NCBI GenBank assembly: GCA_031763025.1
Contig: JASSKH010000016.1
Coordinates: 2,728,001-2,792,000, forward strand
DNA: 64,000 nucleotides
Source of the DNA: Macrocystis pyrifera
Taxonomy: Eukaryota > Sar > Phaeophyceae > Laminariales > Laminariaceae
Direction of reading: 5' to 3'
Part shown: one piece after another, positions 16,178 to 64,000 of the stretch
Layout of the letters: each line of letters begins with the position of its first letter
Numbering within the stretch: the first letter of the stretch is position 1
Made by a program: the position numbers and the translations under genes
The notes under the pieces: generated by a model
What the model saw: the letters and a program-made list of their open reading frames with translations, nothing else
What the model was told of the DNA's origin: nothing
Databases searched by the model: none

Positions 16178-16214
<37 letters not shown>
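16178..16214 (+). repeat. Poly-C tract (37 C), 5' border of a LINE
   Basis: An uninterrupted C run, immediately followed by the LINE fragment at 16215. A matching 30-C run lies at the LINE's other end. Confidence 0.9.
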
Positions 16215-17080
16215 TATGGTCATACGACTACTGCAATGCACGATAAAAGTACCCCCCCAGACAAATAGAGACATGAGAAAGTTGAACTGGCAATATAAAG
16301 TAAGGAACATGCCAAGAAAGAGGTTGCCGGCCATAGTTGATAGAGCTGTTTGGGAGAAAGTAACAAAAGGGCGAGCTGGAATAAGGTGGGATGACGTAGT
16401 TGATAAAGTATGGAAGGATATAGGGGGAAACCAAGAAGAGATGATATCCGCCGGGAAGTTTGGGAGGTACAAGGCAGAAGTAGAAGAAAGGATAGAAAGA
16501 TGAGACAGGCTAGCGCTAAGAAACAAGGTGGAATCGGAAAAAAAACACTTAGAGATATACGGGGGGTTGAGGGAAGGAATAGGAATGAAAACGTATTTGT
16601 ATGGCCCCATGAACTTCGCGAAAATGCTGAAAGTGCGCTTTCGTGTAGAGGACCTGGACCTGCCAGAAAGAAGAGATACACCAGTAGCCGGGAGGAGGAG
16701 GAAGTAGACGCACACATGTGCCCGTGTGGCAAAACAATAGAGAGTAGAACTCACATAGTAGGAGAATGTGAAATATACAAGGAGGAACGGGATGGGTTAG
16801 AAGAGGAGATGAGGAAAATAGACGAATGTGACATGGAGGAGTTTGATACGATGAATAGCTGCGAGAAAACGATCGCTATCCTAGGAGATAGAAGGTGGCC
16901 AAAGGAGGCCAAACAGGAAGGGGATAAGATTAGCAAAAAGTTTCTATTTTATGTATGTAAACAACGTAATGAGCGCCCAATTGTTGGAGGTGTCTCTCTT
17001 ACGAGTAGGAACGGTGCTCCGTCTCGAAAGGGACGCGTGGTCAATAGTCAAATGACTAAGGCAAGCAACAAATGAGTACG
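16215..17080 (+). pseudogene. LINE C-terminal fragment bounded by poly-C
   Basis: Frame 1 (16273-16503) encodes MRKLNWQYKVRNMPRKRLPA and a region ending EVEERIER. After one change of frame near 16500, a second frame continues to the stop at 17073-17075. That frame holds LPERRD..MCPCGKTIESRTHIVGECE, a C-x-C-x8-H-x4-C knuckle typical of LINE C-termini, then EKTIAILGDRRWPKEAKQEG and RNGAPSRKGRVVNSQMTKAS. It is 5' truncated: no reverse transcriptase motifs remain. Only five bases separate the stop codon from the 3' poly-C, so there is almost no 3' UTR. A second, more decayed copy of the last ~200 bp is at 34554-34763. Confidence 0.75.

Positions 17081-17110
<30 letters not shown>
17081..17110 (+). 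repeat. Poly-C tract (30 C), 3' border of a LINE
   Basis: A pure C run directly after the LINE 3' end. With 16178-16214 it brackets the insertion, as expected if the LINE entered a pre-existing C tract. Confidence 0.9.
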
Positions 17111-21999: not shown

Positions 22000-22340
22000 T
22001 TTTTTTATTTTTTTTATTTTTTTTTTTAATCATCACTTTTACTTTCCAGCTCACTCGTAGGAGGTTTTACCCTCGACGATCTTCTGGACAAGCCGTGGTC
22101 ACAGGTGTCGTCCCTTCTCCCCCCCGGTACGTGCCTTTAGTTTATTTCGCGCATAGGGTTCAGCATTCCCACTGCTCGTCGATTTTGATCGGATGTACAG
22201 CTAACTCACGCTTTCGCGCTTTCCGCTAATCAATTTTATTCAAGAAAAGTCCCTATGAGCATGCACTCGGTGAGACTCGAACTCACGAAATTGATCTTGA
22301 TAGGCTCGCGGACCACCTACCAAGCCACCGGGGACGCCGG
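22000..22340 (-). mobile_element. SINE-A (tRNA-derived SINE), full length
   Basis: Read on the - strand it starts CCGGCGTCCCCGGTGGCTTG. It has an A-box-like TGGCTTGGTAGGTGG, a B-box-like GTTCGAGTCTC, a ~240-bp tRNA-unrelated body (GATTAGCGGAAAGC..ATCGACGAGCAGTGGGA..GACCACGGCTTGTCCAGAAG) and an A-rich tail (T-run on + at 22000-22027). CACT on both sides could be the target duplication. It has no coding function and Pol III transcription is expected. Confidence 0.88.
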
Positions 22341-28178: not shown

Positions 28179-28601
28179 GGTACACAAAAAAACTATACGA
28201 CGTATATTTTGCTATTTTTACCCACAATGTTTTGTCCTATTTACTTTTTTTTTTTTTTTTTTTTTTTAATCATCACTTTTACTTTCCAGCCCACTCGTAG
28301 GGGGTTTTACCCTCGACGATCTTCTGGACAAGCCGTGGTCACAGGTGTCGTCCCTTCTCCCCCCCGGTACGTGCCTTTAGTTTTTCTCGCGCATAGGGTT
28401 CAGCATTCCCACTGCTCGTCGATTTTGATCGAATGTACAGCTAACTCACGCTCTCGCGCTTTTCGCTAATCAATTTTATGCAAGAAAAAGTCCCTATGAG
28501 CATGCACTCGGTGAGACTTGAACTCACGAAATTGATCTTGATAGGCTCGCGGATCACCTACCAAGCCACCGGGGACGCCGACTACATAGCCCCTCGTAAT
28601 A
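28179..28601 (-). mobile_element. M1 MITE interrupted by SINE-A
   Basis: 28179-28245 matches the M1 core and inner arm, up to GTCCTATTTACT. 28581-28601 supplies the remaining arm (ACTACATAGCCCCTCGTAAT). The SINE at 28246-28580 lies between, with ACT on both sides as a possible target duplication. The outer left arm of this M1 is missing. Confidence 0.72.
28246..28580 (-). mobile_element. SINE-A, full length, inside an M1
   Basis: The same structure as 22000-22340, which it resembles closely over the whole length: T-run at 28246-28267, then the SINE body, B-box and A-box, ending GGGGACGCCG. It is younger than the MITE it interrupts. Confidence 0.88.
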
Positions 28602-33242: not shown

Positions 33243-33580
33243 GGCGTCCCCGGTGGCTTGTTAGGTGGTCCGCGTGCCTATCAAGATCAATTTCGTGGGT
33301 TCAAATCTCACCGAGTGCATGCTCGTAGGGACTTTTTCCTGGATAAAAAATTGATAAGCGGAAAGCGCGAGGAGAGCGTGAGTTAGCTACATTCGATGAA
33401 AATCGACGAGCAGTGGGAACGCTGAACCCTATGCGTGACAAAAAAATAAAGGCACGTACCGGGGGGAAGAAGGGACGACACCTGTGACCACGGCTTGTCC
33501 AGAGGATCGTCGAGGGTAAAACCTCCTACGAGTTAGGCTGGGAAGTAAAAGTGATGATGTAAAAAAAATAAAAATAAAAA
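33243..33580 (+). mobile_element. SINE-A, full length
   Basis: Starts CGGCGTCCCCGGTGGCTTGT, with the B box in GGGTTCAAATCTCACCGAGT, the SINE-A body, and a tail AAAAAAAATAAAAATAAAAA at 33561-33580. Confidence 0.87.
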
Positions 33581-33984
33581 ACGGACAAGTGGTTGTAAAC
33601 GGGTTTTAGCCCTGGTGAGGATCGCAGTCCTGTTTGGGGAACAGTACTCCCAATTATAACAGATAAATGGTACGGGAGAACATAGTAAATAGGACCTGCG
33701 GTAAACACGAAAACACAAAATTTGTCAGGACAATGAAAATAATACAGAACGAAAATTCGCAACATACTTGTACAGGTTTTACGTGGCAATACAAGTATTA
33801 TGTCCTACTCGGGGAGACTCTCGGTGTCGTTCTGTATTGCATGTTGTGTGTTTCTTTATACCCAGTACCCAGCAGACCGAGTGCGCAGCAGTGCGAGTTC
33901 TTCGATCTGTCACAGTGGTCTATTCTTACGAGGTGCCGGGTGCCAACTACCAGTACGCTGGCACGACAATACGTTGACTAATCT
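33581..33984. other. Half M1 copy in otherwise unassigned sequence
   Basis: 33668-33720 (GGTACGGGAGAACATAGTAA then ATAGGACC) is one M1 arm with part of the core. The rest shows no gene. Confidence 0.45.
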
Positions 33985-34439: not shown

Positions 34440-34860
34440 GTCTTGATTTTTGTCGTCAATTTTATTTTCCAGCTCTCCTCGTGTTTTATAGGTGCGACAT
34501 TTTCCCCTCACCGATCGTCCGGAGAACCGTGGTCAGAAGTGTACCCCCCCCCCGGTTTCCTAGAAGATAGGCGGTGGCCACAAAGGGCGAAACAGGAAAG
34601 AGAGATGACAAGGAAAAGCGTTTCGACGTAAAACATGTGAAAAGAAATCGTGGTGAGCGCCCAAATCTTTGACGTGTCTCTATTTGGAGTAGGGAACGGT
34701 GCCCCGTCTCGAAATGGATGCGTTCTCAATAATAATAGTCGAATATCGAAAGCATGTGACAAAGCCCCTTCCGCCTCCCCCGGTACTTGCCCTGACACTC
34801 ATGGCGCATAGGGTTCGGCATTCATTGCCACTGCTGGTCGATTTTCCTTAATTTTGACGC
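34440..34860 (-). mobile_element. Old SINE-A copy split by a LINE 3' end
   Basis: 34440-34542 (TTTTATTTTCCAGC..GAACCGTGGTCAGAAGTGT) and 34777-34860 (CCGGTACTTGCCC..GGCGCATAGGGTTCGGCATT..CACTGCTGGTCGATTTT) are two parts of one SINE-A, broken exactly at its internal C tract. The tRNA-like head is missing. Confidence 0.65.
34554..34763 (+). pseudogene. LINE 3'-end fragment, same family as 16215-17080
   Basis: TCCTAGAAGATAGGCGGTGG, GAGCGCCCAAATCTTTGACG, AACGGTGCCCCGTCTCGAAA and the closing AGCATGTGACAAAG follow 16880-17072 base for base with scattered changes. It lies between C11 (34543-34553) and a CCCC..CCCCC stretch (34764-34778), inside the C tract of a SINE-A. It is strongly 5' truncated and decayed. 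Confidence 0.7.
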
Positions 34861-37002: not shown

Positions 37003-37337
37003 CGGCGTCCCCGGTGGCTTGGTAGGTGGTCCGCGTGCCTGTCAAGATCAATTTCGTGGGTTCGAGTCTCACCGAGTGCATGCTCGTAGGGGCTGTTTCT
37101 TGCATTAAAGAGATTGATTAGCGGAAAGCGCGAGAGCGTGAGTTAGCTACATTCGATGAAAATCGACGAGCAGTGGGAATGCTGAACCCTATGCGCGATA
37201 AAAAATAAAGGCACGTACCGGGGGGGAGAAGGGAAGACACCTGTGACCACGGCTTGTCCAGAAGGTCGTCGAGGGTAACACCTCGTAAGAATTAGGCTGG
37301 AAAGTGAAAGTGATGAGTAAAAATAAAATAAAATAAT
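37003..37337 (+). mobile_element. SINE-A, full length
   Basis: Begins CCGGCGTCCCCGGTGGCTTG, with A box, B box (GGGTTCGAGTCTCACC), body, and a tail of AAATAAAATAAAATAATATA then (TA)n. Intact structure. Confidence 0.88.
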
Positions 37338-39704
37338 ATATATATATGTATGCACCTGATATGTATGTTCGACGTCACTATTCGATCCATCATGACAACC
37401 GAGATCGGGGCTCAAACGTTCAATTCAAATCCCTTCTGGGAAGCCAACTGCGAAATGCTTCTTTAGAAGCGCTCCGTTTCGCCGTTGCGCCTTGCCCGCA
37501 GTGCTGTTGGTGCGGTCTCGGCGCCGGAGATAACCTTGCCGAGGCAGTCCCCATCCCCTCACTCCCTCACCTCCTGGCTGCTTGTCTTATTTGTACTGGT
37601 ACACGCAATATACGGCACTTGAAACACGGCGAAGTCATCCATCCACCATGCATGATTCATTCTGAGTTGAAGGGTTGGGCTCCATTTGCTACAGCAAGTA
37701 CTCAGAAAGTGGTTGGAGATGGTTGACTCGGAGTTCTGAAATTTCAGAAGGAGACCCGCACTGCAGATTGATTAGTGCCCGCCTCTGTACACAGAAATAA
37801 AAAATGCCTGGGTTGGGGTTATGATCTACCTGGAATTATTTACAAGGCAAGGCAAGGGTGATGATAACGGCTTCAGACAGCACCTAAAGTACTGCTATCA
37901 TAAACATACTACGATTCACATATATTGATACTGAGGAACCGGAAAGCTAACCCAGGTTGGATTTCTATTTTTAGAGAGGGCGACTTCTTCATCAACATCA
38001 AGATAACGACTCTAGAATTTATGATTTTCCACCACTCACTACTACTACTGTGAATCTCAGCACAGATTAGTCTGTTTCTTATTGGGGGTTTCCTGTACTA
38101 CAGAGAGTATATATGATACATAGATAGGTTAGAGTTACGTCACAGGACTACAAGATTATGCATACATTGCACGAAGAGAGATTGGACGTCTCGTGGTTAG
38201 ATAGCTACAGGAGCCCTACTTATCGTTGTCCGCGCCCCCGTTCTGGGTAATTTCTCGCATGCTCGAGGTCGAAGTTGTAGGGCTACTGGTCGAAGAAGCG
38301 AGCAGAATCAAGAGCAACGGGCCGGGATTCAAACCCTCAACCACAAGTTTTACCATAAATCATTTATCCCGCCCCGTCCCGCTACTGCTATGTACTGTCC
38401 CGCCACCCGCCACATCCGGTGACTCTCCAACCAACGACGACGGGTCAATTTTGTCCGACCCTCCCCGCCGCCATATTTGGGTTTGGGGCCTTCGAAGCTC
38501 GCGAGAAATTTCCTTGGACACAATCTCGAGTACCTCTTGTACTTTGTACGCACATAGTATTAATTGTAGATCAGGGCAAGCGTTGCCCTGCTGTTCCCTA
38601 GGTGCTACAATTTAATCCACGGTTGGACGGAGGTATGGAATTTCAGACATTGGACAGGCTTAGAAAAGCGGCCTAAAAGCGGGAACGATACGTTCGCAAA
38701 TACGTCAGTCAGAAACAATAACAACATGCATGTGCATTTGGGCTAGGAGCGAAAAAACGCAGCAGCAGCGATAGGAAAACACCATACTGCAGAGGTCAGG
38801 CGCATTTTGGGTAGGAATGAAAATTTCTCTCGTACTTTGTACGTACAAAATTAATAGGGATGCTTCGTGATCCGAATACGTGGTACCTAGCAGGCCACGA
38901 AACGCGCTGGATTGCTGTGGCGCGTTGGTGTCAAGCATTGACAAGGTTGTTTGGTTTAGGGCTTGCCGATAAACAGTTCAACCAGCACCGCACCCATTTC
39001 TCGGGGACAAGCTGGATCGATGTTATTGCTCACATTTTGCAGTCGGTGGTTAGTGTTGTTCTTTCAAGTTGACTTCTCGTATTTTCGAGCTTTCGTCAAG
39101 GAGCCCTTACTGGTCCATTCCACCCCGACGTTTAGCACAACATGGTTCACAGTTCACAGAGGGACGTCGAGTATTCTGGGGTCCAAAACGCAAAACAAAA
39201 CGGCCGCATCCCAACATCTAAGCCTGAAACTCAGTTGGGACGTCATAGGGAAATCACACCGGGAAACAATGACGATTACGGCATCGGTCCCACGAAGCAG
39301 CCCTAGCAGCTGAGGTAGGGGATGTGTCCGAATTTCACAAGGAGGAGCTGTGCGGCAAACGTGTAGCACGATGGAACTTGTACATATGTATACTTACAGC
39401 AGTATGTATATGATCCATGCAGAAAACAAGTTCCAAAGGGGGTACCCTGTTTTTCTCCGTCATTTTGAGAATTGACACGTGAAACGTGCTCCAGAAGTGC
39501 GCGGCCTAGAGGATTCTGAAACCGGTCTCGAAAAAAAACTCCTTGGACAGCAGTGGCCATTTTGCGAAAAAAAAAAAAAAAATGGGAAATTTTACCGAGA
39601 AGATACCCCGAAAAGTTGAAAGAACAAAGAAAAAATAAAATATATTTTAGAGACGACGCCCAACGCCCAACTGATTTGTCGAGAAGACACATTTATGTAT
39701 ACAA
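37338..39704. other. No recognised gene
   Basis: Open frames at 37346-37726 and 38226-38615 are the longest but show no domain, repeat homology or splice context that I recognise. Octamer words lie at 39396 and 39547. Confidence 0.35.
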
Positions 39705-40043
39705 CCGGCGTCCCCGGTGGCTTGGTAGGTGGTCCGCGAGCCTATCAAGATCAATTTCGTGAGTTCGAGTCTCACCGAGTGCATGCTCGTAGGGACTTTT
39801 TCTTGCATAAAATTGATTAGCGGAAAGCGCGAGAGCGTGAGTTAGCTGTACATTCGATGAAAATCGACGAGCAGTGGGAATGCTGAACCCTATGCGCGCT
39901 AAAAACTAAAAGACACGTACCCGGGGGGAGAAGGGACGACACCTGTGACCACGGCTTGTCCAGAAGATCGTCGAGGGTAGAACCTCCTACGGGTGGGCTG
40001 GAAAGTAAAAGTGATGAAAAAAAAAATAATATTTAAAAAAACA
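39705..40043 (+). mobile_element. SINE-A, full length
   Basis: Begins CCGGCGTCCCCGGTGGCTTG and ends GTGATGAAAAAAAAAATAAT then A-rich. It faces a second SINE-A at 40412 in the opposite orientation. Confidence 0.88.
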
Positions 40044-40411: not shown

Positions 40412-40752
40412 TTTTTTTTTTTTTTTTTTTTTTTTTTTCATCATCACTTTTACTTTCCAGCCCACTCGTAGGAGGTTTTACCCTCGACGATCTTCTGGAC
40501 AAGCCGTGGTCACAGGTGTCGTCCCTTCTCCCCCCCGGTACGTGCCTTTATTTTTTATCGCGCATAGGGTTCAGCATTCCCACTGCTCGTCGATTTTCAT
40601 CGAATGTACAGCTAACTCACGCTCTCGCGCTTTCCGCTAATCAATTTTATGCAAGAAAAAGTCCCTATGAGTATGCACTCGGTGAGACTCGAACTCACGA
40701 AATTGATCTTGATAGGCTCGCGGACCACCTACCAAGCCTCCGAGGACGCCGG
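40412..40752 (-). mobile_element. SINE-A, full length
   Basis: T-run at 40412-40438, SINE body, B box and A box; ends CTCCGAGGACGCCGG. It forms a 340-bp inverted pair with 39705-40043. Confidence 0.88.
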
Positions 40753-54743: not shown

Positions 54744-57700
54744 GTTCTCCGCGAACATAGGTCGGCAATGTCTTCTTGAAGGGCATCTCTGGGGGTCAGA
54801 AGCGGCGAACATCGATCGGTGTGGAGCTCGTAGTGCGGCGAAAAGTCCTCTTCCTCGGTACGTGCACTCCTGAAAAGGGGTGAGGGCATCTATTCATACG
54901 GCTGGGGCAGTCGCCTCGTCATTAAACGAGGCGTGAGTCTCTGGTGATGGGTGCCTCAATGATAGTCAGAATGTTGTACAGCAGGGTAGGCCGATCGTAG
55001 CGTGTTGACCCGTTAGTCCCCGTTTTGGGGACCAGACCACTCTATTTTCAAGTAGTTTCTCCCGAAACAGGAACTGCAGTCGTTAATAGGGTTACCCCTT
55101 CTCGAAGAGCAATTAAATTCGTCTTTTTTTATCATCCCATATATTATATGCGCCCTTCGTTTATCTCTCCCTCCTAATACGAGGGATCATAGTAAATAGG
55201 ACCAACTATTGCTAGTAAAAATAGGGAAATATAGAGGTTTTTGTGTTTACCGTAGGTCCTATTTACTATGGTCCCCCGTAATGGTCGTAACTCAGATCCG
55301 GCGTCGCACAGCCGGCCCTCCTCCCCCCTCCTCATTCTGGTACGCTCCTTCGTTTTTATCGCGGGAGGGTTCAGCGCCTTCTTCCCGCGTGGACTCTCGT
55401 CAATTTGTTTCGGATAAAAACCATTCGGTTTTAGTGTGGCCTCATTGTTGCAGGAGAAAAAGGTCTTGTAAACCCTCGATTTACCGTGCAACTTGCTTTA
55501 GCCGCGAAACCCCGGCGCGTGTCCGGTATGATGTGTCTGGTTTCGTCCATGTACAAAAGCGCGTGCGTTCATTCAACCGCGCGTGCATTCGTTCATCGTG
55601 CAAGGGGCATAAAAGGTGTGGGTGCTCTGTGTGCCCCTCTTTGAAGCAGGGGTTCCGTGCGCCCGCCACGCACGTGTCATGACGTGGCTGAGTTGTTTGG
55701 CAAGTGCGCAAACACCGCTCAAACCGTGTCAGTATTCTACACGGCTAACGCTGGTGTCTCTCGTCTAGAGGGCTTAATGCATCACAGCTCCGTTCTGGTG
55801 ACCGCCGACAATCGATTGGTTTTGTGCTAAACGCCGAACACCAAATGGCGCATGGTTGCGATACAACCGTAACGCAGGTTAGCTAATGTACGCGACCTCA
55901 GCCAATGCATGCCACGGTACAAAGGCGCCCCAACATTCCATGAGATTCTTCAGTTAAGGACCTCCATCATCCCTCGCCCCAAACCTCTTATTTTGTTTGA
56001 TACGATAAAAATGAAAACCCAACGAAAAATCCCAAGCATGCCCCAGGTGTACAACGAGTACTATTGCAACACCACACATCTGGTATTCCGACGATAAGGC
56101 ACGCATCCTTATTAGGGAGATCCCCAGATGAGGACCTCGTTAGTCCCAGTGACAGTTTGGCCAGAAAGTGCCATTACTGTATATACCTCTATCGTGCACG
56201 TGGCCGCCAAATATATACAGGGTGCATGCCTCAATGTTTTGCTGCGTTAAGATAGAGATTCTGCTAGAACCTCTCAAGCCGGAGATGCGTGCCATACTAC
56301 CGAAAAACCTGGTAGTTTGTTGTTTGCACGTCTCCTCCCTGCTCCACTCTACCTCACTGCAGTAGACCCACCACTCTCCGGCCCCGACTGTGCAACCATA
56401 TATTAAAAATACCTCCTCCCCCCCCCCCCCCCCCTGCTCATTGTAGAGATGCGAGGGACTAAGGTGATACGACTACAGTCGTGCATGACATTTTGAGTAC
56501 ACCTCCTTACCCCCCCCCTGCGCATCCCCGCGTCCGATGTACCCTACTTTGGTGGTCTTCAAGACGAGCCAACGTCCGGACTTGATGCGGCTTCCGCGTC
56601 CGAGATCATGGCGCTCTTACGACGCCTTGCTTCGGAGTCCGGCATGATCATCGTCACATCGCTGCACCAGCCGTCCAGCCGGGTGTTCAACAGCTTCGAC
56701 CAGGTTTGCGTTTTCTATTGTTGAAAGAATGGCTATTAATAGGGTGGCATGTACCTGGTATGTGCATGTTGATGGTTGCAAGTTTTTTTCTGCGTTGGGT
56801 TGGTTGCGAACTTCCCACTGCGATGCGTGCTATTACGGGGGTCCATAGTTAATAGGACCTATGGTGTACATAAAAACCTATATATTTAACTTTTTTTACT
56901 AACAATATTTGGTCCTGTTTACTCCCGTCGTAGTATATATCTGCTGCTGTGATGGTCGCGAGTGCTGTTCTAATGCGATATCTACAAACCTTCTCCTGCA
57001 GCGATTGTTGCATTTTATTTTCTGCCGCAATGACTGCAAGTATTTTCCTGCTATTAATAGTAGTGGTTGCAGGTGTTTTCCCACTGGGATGGTCGCAAAC
57101 CTTTTCCTGCTGCTATGATTGCAGGCCGTTTCCTGCTGTGATGGTTTTCAAGCGTTTTCCTCGTGCGATAGTTGCAAGCCCCTCTCTACCGCAATGGTTT
57201 CAAGTAATTTCCTGCTGTCATGGGTCGCAAGCCGTTAACTACTGCGATGGGTGCAAGCATTTTGCTGCTATGATGGTTGCAAGCCTTTTTCTGCTGCGAT
57301 GGTTGCAAGCCTTTTTCTGGTGCGATGGTTGCAAGCCTTTTGCTGCTATGATGGTTGCAAGCCCTTTTCTGCTGCGATTGTTGCAAGCGTTTTTCCTACT
57401 GCGATGGTGGCAAGTACTGCTTATCTAACTGCGGTGGTTGCAAGCCTTTTTCCTACCGCGACAGTTGGAGGCGTTTCCCTGCTGCGCGGGTTGCAAGCAT
57501 TGTTCCTACTGCGATGGTAGCGAGACCTTTTCCTGCTGCGATGATTGCAAGCGTGCAATACCTTGCTCCCGAAACCTAGGGTGCAATCCTGGAGAGGTCA
57601 GATATGTGAATTTACCAACCACCTGTTCACGACTGAGACGCACACTCGTTCCACGAAAGGAACAAGAAGATTCTCGAAGCCACCCTCTCTCAGCCAGCCA

Positions 57701-63890: not shown

Positions 63891-64000
63891 TTGCCTCGCG
63901 TTGGCCTGCCTCGCCTTGACTTGCCTCGCCTTGCCTCGCCTTGCCTTGCCTTGCCTTGCCTTGCCTTGCCTTGCCTTGCCTTGCCTTGCCTTGCCTTGCC
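63891..64000 (+). repeat. (CTTGC)n microsatellite running off the window
   Basis: Imperfect TTGCC/TCGCC units from 63891 become pure CTTGC repeats by about 63940 and reach the last base. The gradient from impure to pure suggests growth toward the right. Confidence 0.95.

Follow-up and report, generated by a model that had tools for sequence, protein, structure and literature searches.

Few LINEs are known to target simple repeats, and classically the tail of an element pairs with its primer as A with T. Families of the R1 clade and the SART/TRAS elements are specific for microsatellites and telomere repeats, mammalian L1 undergoes TPRT at T-rich sites, and a very short 3' UTR is a trait of RTE elements.

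The accessible part of PMC4640811 counts HERO families among the microsatellite-specific LINEs, and the LINE 3' ends named as known in the accessible part of PMC3747384 are poly-A and repeats of TAA, TGTAA or TTG. The latter source also presents SINEX-3_CR and L1-1_CR of Chlamydomonas as a stringent-type pair with a shared 3' stem-loop. RTE and RTE-X LINEs, together with their non-autonomous partners, are abundant in Ectocarpus according to the accessible part of PMC12477816, in the main text of which the whole word "poly" is absent. Poly-C was not found as a LINE tail or target among the titles, abstract openings and passages searched, which included the accessible parts of PMC4640811 and PMC3747384 and lay outside most subscription journals and Kojima and Fujiwara 2004; a literature search on the "poly C tail" of LINEs or retrotransposons matched no paper.

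Here we describe a LINE of the giant kelp Macrocystis pyrifera and consider it highly probable that it is an APE-type element for which poly-C is both the 3' tail and the preferred target, its RNA, tailed with poly-C, being primed on G tracts. Most truncated copies have C flanks on both sides, in a strand-specific manner, and they come with target-site duplications, one empty site and a 3' end shared with a SINE. The window is the whole stretch of 64,000 nucleotides that was analysed, and the genome searched was the 537-Mb, 223-contig assembly of M. pyrifera; the 537-Mb giant kelp assembly consists of 35 scaffolds and 188 contigs (PMC10498591, accessible part). The locus at 16178 to 17110 of the window contains the following features.

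16178..16214, + strand: C37 tract on the 5' side of the nested insertions
16215..16251, + strand: 3' fragment of the partner SINE, 37 bp, 85% match to the SINE, ending in AGTA ahead of a C run
16252..16258, + strand: C7, the tail of the SINE fragment and the apparent target tract of the LINE copy
16259..17080, + strand: LINE copy, 5'-truncated, 822 bp, frameshifted, carrying the C-terminal part of the RT protein
17014..17079, + strand: LINE 3' end, 66 nt, with a predicted three-way-junction fold, common to the partner SINE
17073..17075, + strand: TGA stop codon, followed by GTACG as the entire 3' UTR
17081..17110, + strand: C30 tract on the 3' side

The preliminary description had placed a LINE fragment between C37 and C30, with five bases from its stop codon to the 3' C run. 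Both tracts are present as described (16178-16214 and 17081-17110), and exactly five bases (GTACG) separate the TGA at 17073-17075 from the 3' C run. C30 does adjoin the 3' end of the LINE, but C37 is separated from it by the SINE fragment and C7, the LINE beginning at 16259 and not at 16215; since a SINE 3' fragment with its own C7 lies between C37 and the LINE, the locus is nested. A C-x-C-x8-H-x4-C motif can be read in the C-terminal part of the RT protein of this copy, protein comparison gives a two-frame match at 79% and 88% identity, and a sequence search finds at least 39 further genomic places for 16259..17080 at 90-95% identity. At the window edge (63891-64000) lies a TTGCC-type 5-bp repeat in 22 copies.

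The element itself is about 4.33 kb long, as judged from two long copies (L045 and L047) with a common 5' end. A frame of L047 contains an apurinic-like endonuclease domain (PF03372, E=3.6e-11), a reverse transcriptase domain is also found (PF00078, E=2.9e-12), and FADD, a form of the [FY]xDD motif, is read in a frame of L045. The RT protein matched ten RT chains, R2 and LINE-1 proteins among them, in a sequence search against PDB; the EN protein had no match in PDB at E 0.01, the RT protein had none in IMG/VR, and an Rfam search of two loci gave no match. Among ten long copies with frames examined, the longest open frame over 200 aa has 687 aa, so none of the ten is intact. The features of an APE-type LINE are all present, namely an APE-like endonuclease, an RT with the [FY]xDD motif, and 5' truncation with target-site duplications. 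The poly-A tail characteristic of the L1 clade is replaced by C runs (82 of 84 three-prime flanks have C≥4 within 30 bp), and the 3' UTR, at 5 bp, is as short as in RTE and RTE-X elements.

Like the microsatellite and telomere-repeat LINEs, the kelp LINE has its copies in one kind of simple repeat; unlike for them, that repeat is poly-C, which is not named as a target in the accessible part of PMC4640811, and the comparison is by target and not by clade. With mammalian L1 it shares an APE endonuclease, 5' truncation and a proposed annealing between a homopolymer tail and a primer complementary to it (PMC3747384, accessible part, for the role of poly-A), and it differs from L1 in using C/G rather than A/T, in having no poly-A and in having a 3' end sequence common to a SINE. 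Its likeness to RTE and RTE-X elements, by features rather than by RT phylogeny, lies in the very short 3' UTR and in non-autonomous elements sharing the 3' end.

Two sets of copies were compiled. Set 1 consists of the 40 genomic places that score best against the window copy, which is one of them, and set 2 of the first 40 of 3607 exact places of the 18-mer at the LINE 3' end, ordered by contig and not by score. Counting only the strand on which the main copy lies, and no secondary copies of the opposite orientation, the two sets have 92 records that extend to the last bases of the LINE. Dropping eight of them left 84 events: one was a SINE cross-hit, six were presumed duplicates of one event (five recognised by script, L055 by hand), and one was the second L038 tail, which our rule joined to the first and which may be a separate event. 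L029, among the 40 best matches, is without the last ~26 bp of the LINE and has no C run after it; it stands outside the 3' count. Homopolymer lengths are uncertain in this PacBio assembly. L072 and L086, considered as insertions adjoining another repeat, are really LINE copies split by that repeat and were taken out of the 5' tally; L015 is likewise split by a repeat, yet was counted as open. A short repeat ending in CCCCCGTAA(T) is inserted within L015 and L072. One LINE insertion with its surroundings occurs on five small contigs (L053, L058, L059, L065 and L066) in a satellite-like manner.

On the 3' side, CCCC follows immediately in 2845 (79%) of the 3607 exact genomic occurrences of the last 18 bases of the LINE. 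C≥5 lies within 30 bp of the 3' end in 45/46 copies of set 1 and 33/38 of set 2, and C≥8 in 44/46 and 26/38, respectively, long pure C runs being less general than C≥5 on this side. G runs of 4 or more number zero in both the 3' and the 5' flanks. At random window positions C≥5 occurs within 30 bp in 553 of 20,000 cases, and at positions in the loci away from the LINE in 1288 of 22,644, so that the two random sets give 3-6%.

The control LINE, which has a 1248-aa open frame with EN and RT, ends in (CA)n and is 22% identical to the poly-C LINE in its RT, has 3377 exact 3' ends genome-wide, against 3607. CCCC lies within 20 nt, a window wider than that for the poly-C LINE, at 87 of 1705 of its forward-strand ends, and C≥4 within 45 nt at 2 of 19 readable 3' ends in a sample of 20 near-consecutive listed entries. 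On its 5' side, seen in two copies, the 30 bp next to the junction contain no C4. Two of its copies (L091 and L092) are 99.6% identical, and this LINE looks recently active.

The C runs could in principle be artefacts of assembly or sequencing at element ends, given that homopolymer lengths are unreliable in a long-read assembly. They occur on the C side only, however, without G runs, the control LINE in the same assembly is without them at its 3' end, and the duplications and the empty site described below use the same tracts; we regard an artefact as extremely improbable.

Truncated copies have C≥5 within 30 bp of the 5' junction in 50 of 59 cases (31/35 in set 1, 19/24 in set 2), compared with 3-6% of random positions. 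Only 5' ends inside the extracted sequence were counted, and 19/24 is 20/26 minus the two repeat-split copies. Nine of the 59 junctions have no C5 within 30 bp, and L012 and L030 (set 1) and L062, L084, L085 and L087 (set 2) are without even C≥4. Extending the distance to 40 bp finds a C tract at 55/59, the junction lying a median of 4 bp past the tract (range 0-31). The proposal that target choice rather than chance accounts for the C runs is thus supported. The preliminary description had suggested scoring the flanks of further copies and comparing another LINE: the majority of the copies examined are flanked by C runs at both ends, and such runs are rare at the 3' side of the control LINE, the 5' side of which was seen in two copies. 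Neither of the outcomes it had named as adverse, a majority of flanks without C or C runs equally common at random positions, occurred.

The same data bear on three other readings. Poly-C might be the 3' tail of the LINE and nothing more, with insertion sites otherwise random. In agreement with this, 26 of 35 set-1 copies have a longer C run on the 3' than on the 5' side (equal 40-bp windows), although in set 2 (n=24, same windows) the 3' run is longer in 12, shorter in 11 and equal in one. Long C runs were also gained by L028 and L020 at sites with only C5, and neither presumed full-length copy has a 5' C run. What makes this reading improbable is that C≥5 stands at 50/59 truncated-copy 5' junctions in a strand-specific manner, that several copies have a C tract ahead of the duplicated bases, and that the empty site carries C6-C11 in 12/12 cases. 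Tail growth is not general, since set 2 shows no 3' excess. It does occur: the longest C run of L028 is 5 on the target side and 21 after the LINE. Its target has only CCCCCTCC ahead of GCCGACTG, with C21 on the 3' side, so this insertion added a C tail as well.

Alternatively, the 5' C runs could stem from template jumping, or from the C tails of older copies into which later ones are nested, and not from target choice. L006 does have the order LINE-C-tail-C-tail-C and in L062 one tail is joined directly to another, and an AGTAC-like end precedes 16 of 54 tracts by a script rule, or about 20 by eye. The rule finds no LINE- or SINE-like AGTAC end ahead of the other 38; four of these are degenerate or undetermined by eye (L006:2434, L035:1422, L071:186, L084:706), leaving 34. 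With 34-38 of 54 tracts thus free of such an end, and with insertion into an older C tail being insertion into a C tract anyway, we hold this explanation to be very unlikely. The tandem LINE tails of L006 (2323-2523), which are separated by C runs, and the directly joined tails of L062 (54-174, minus strand) suggest template jumping or repeated nesting in these copies.

A retention bias, under which the LINE would insert widely and mainly the copies in C tracts survived, would be compatible with fixed copies alone. The clustering of junctions at a median of 4 bp past the tract speaks against it, as does the control LINE, the exact 3' ends of which are comparably numerous (3377 versus 3607) and rarely carry C runs; there is little chance that this bias is the explanation.

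Both presumed full-length copies (L045 and L047) have no C4 in the 30 bp ahead of the 5' end. The site of L047 is merely pyrimidine-rich (CTTCCCTCACGACAA), with the duplication CACGACAA and C8 on the 3' side. Either full-length insertions use looser sites or a sample of two misleads, and because both copies are without C4 we grade the poly-C specificity as strong and not strict.

Target-site duplications, scored by matching the last bases of the 5' flank to the 3' flank, with re-pairing of flanks as the null, tie the C tracts to the target. Duplications of at least 6 bp are found at 11 of 61 junctions (mean 1.9, maximum 7 in 1000 re-pairings) and of at least 8 bp at 6 of 61 (mean 0.4, maximum 4 in 1000 re-pairings); a remainder test gave 8/31 against a mean of 1.7 and a maximum of 5 of 2000. 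At the other 50/61 junctions no duplication reaches 6 bp, and many would be pure C and not scorable. The duplications begin inside the C tract and extend a few bases beyond it: L027 has C16-ATAC before the LINE and C19-ATAC after, L024 has C13-TGGTC before and C8-TGGTC after, and L057 has C16-GTCTTTCCT before, with GTCTTTCCT past the C block after. Because the C tract lies ahead of duplicated non-C bases (L003, L024, L027, L031, L057 and L089), it belonged to the target.

Further evidence comes from a second LINE copy in the window.

34544..34553, + strand: C10 tract flanking the second copy at its 5' side
34549..34556, + strand: target-site duplication CCCCCGGT, left copy
34557..34764, + strand: second copy of the LINE 3' end, older and diverged, inside a ~340-bp host repeat
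34777..34784, + strand: target-site duplication CCCCCGGT, right copy

This copy has 40.6% protein identity to the LINE over 34557-34763 (E=0.001). It had been described as lying between C runs, which is true of the C10 at its 5' side; its 3' tract is broken (CCCC TTCCGCCT CCCCC) and weaker than claimed. It does sit, as proposed, within the natural C tract of the ~340-bp repeat, which we take to be the SINE-A of the preliminary description. In an empty-site search, the two flanks of the copy were joined and compared with the sequence examined, and they match the ~340-bp repeat across the junction at 61-68% identity. All 12 LINE-free copies of the host repeat in that sequence carry C6-C11 at the insertion point (nine have C7, two C6 and one C11), a thirteenth record, L004, being left out because it lies inside L041. 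In 11 of the 12 the C tract is followed by GGTACGTG or a close variant, the LINE-bearing copy having the duplication CCCCCGGT; the latter's own 5' flank (GTGTA-C10) is unlike that of the other host-repeat copies. At this one empty site, that of the second copy, the C tract predated the LINE insertion. When the flanks of 57 copies were joined and scanned in search of other empty sites, nested tails or C runs matching one another were the only hits. One empty site with an earlier C tract supports poly-C target choice, with the reservations that the preference is strong and not absolute and that the 3' run is also a tail added on insertion. The host repeat itself has C/G≥5 in 1 of 24 flanks (12 copies, one only 66% identical). 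Copies with an internal C6-C11 tract also lie at 22004-22186, 28247-28466, 33398-33582, 37127-37338, 39826-40023 and 40418-40631 of the window, and a copy of the ~340-bp repeat also splits a LINE (L086).

Taken by its target, the kelp LINE belongs with the simple-repeat-targeting LINEs: most truncated copies share one target, which at the one empty site was present before insertion, and the rule is not absolute (0/2 presumed full-length copies).

The partner SINE matches the LINE end over its last ~80 bp, at about 74-79% over 66-86 columns, and such homology between the two 3' ends is a feature of stringent-type LINE/SINE pairs. C≥5 comes after the SINE end in 54 of 59 copies, and in 46 of 51 once array duplicates are discounted; the tally leaves out 10 BLAST rows not reaching the SINE end and 11 redundant loci. 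The window has a further example.

56418..56434, + strand: C17 tract directly 5' of a truncated partner-SINE fragment (about 56436-56498; weak match, E=0.038)

The LINE and SINE tails are predicted to fold alike, with a closing stem GUGCUC/GAGUAC and two hairpin arms (z -2.41 and -0.75). In the 3'-end alignment 93.5% of cells are paired, and four pairs have double changes, a number equalled by 30 of 500 shuffles, so covariation is weak; a search of 273 kb of sequence with the 3'-end model gave 105 matches at E values of up to 0.1. The predicted fold is suggestive of an RNA structure that may act as a recognition signal. Like described stringent-type pairs, the kelp pair has a shared 3' end of about 66-80 nt with a similar predicted fold; it is unlike them in ending in poly-C and in its weak covariation. 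The partner SINE probably uses the LINE machinery, and LINE and SINE are found nested in one another's C tracts. In 17 of 61 copies (L001-L040, L051-L090) the 5' end lies 61-67 nt from the LINE 3' end, where homology to the partner SINE begins, and genome-wide there are 438 minus-strand places with C5 within 8 nt upstream of that start. The reverse transcriptase may stop at the base of the folded 3' end, or the cluster may represent a minimal mobile unit.

In the mechanism that we propose, the endonuclease would nick the G strand inside a C/G tract, and the 3'-OH, ending in G, would anneal to the poly-C end of the LINE RNA and so prime reverse transcription. The cut in the second strand would fall a few bases past the 3' end of the tract, and the outcome would be a 5'-truncated copy with a C run at its new 3' end and a duplication that starts inside the C tract, the C tail being presumably copied from the source locus or produced by slippage. 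The data agree with such a form of target-primed reverse transcription, which would be the C/G equivalent of the T-rich primer and poly-A tail of L1.

The genome contains 93,041 runs of at least 14 Cs, against about 3 expected from independent bases, and 12,297 (13%) of them start directly after an AGTAC-type element end (AGTACV), the mirrored pattern numbering 131. Poly-C tracts are thus both used and produced by LINE/SINE insertion. The chances seem about even that LINE and SINE form a system in which one homopolymer serves as tail and as target, so that every insertion creates a new place to land, and which may have built much of the unusual poly-C landscape of this genome.

If true, a C/G version of tail-target complementarity in brown algae would mean that this complementarity can switch to another base, and it would offer a natural setting in which to ask if the target is set by the endonuclease or by the pairing of primer and tail. 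It would also help to explain the origin of many kelp poly-C tracts, which matters for assembly and marker design; a LINE family of thousands of copies may help to build its own landing sites.
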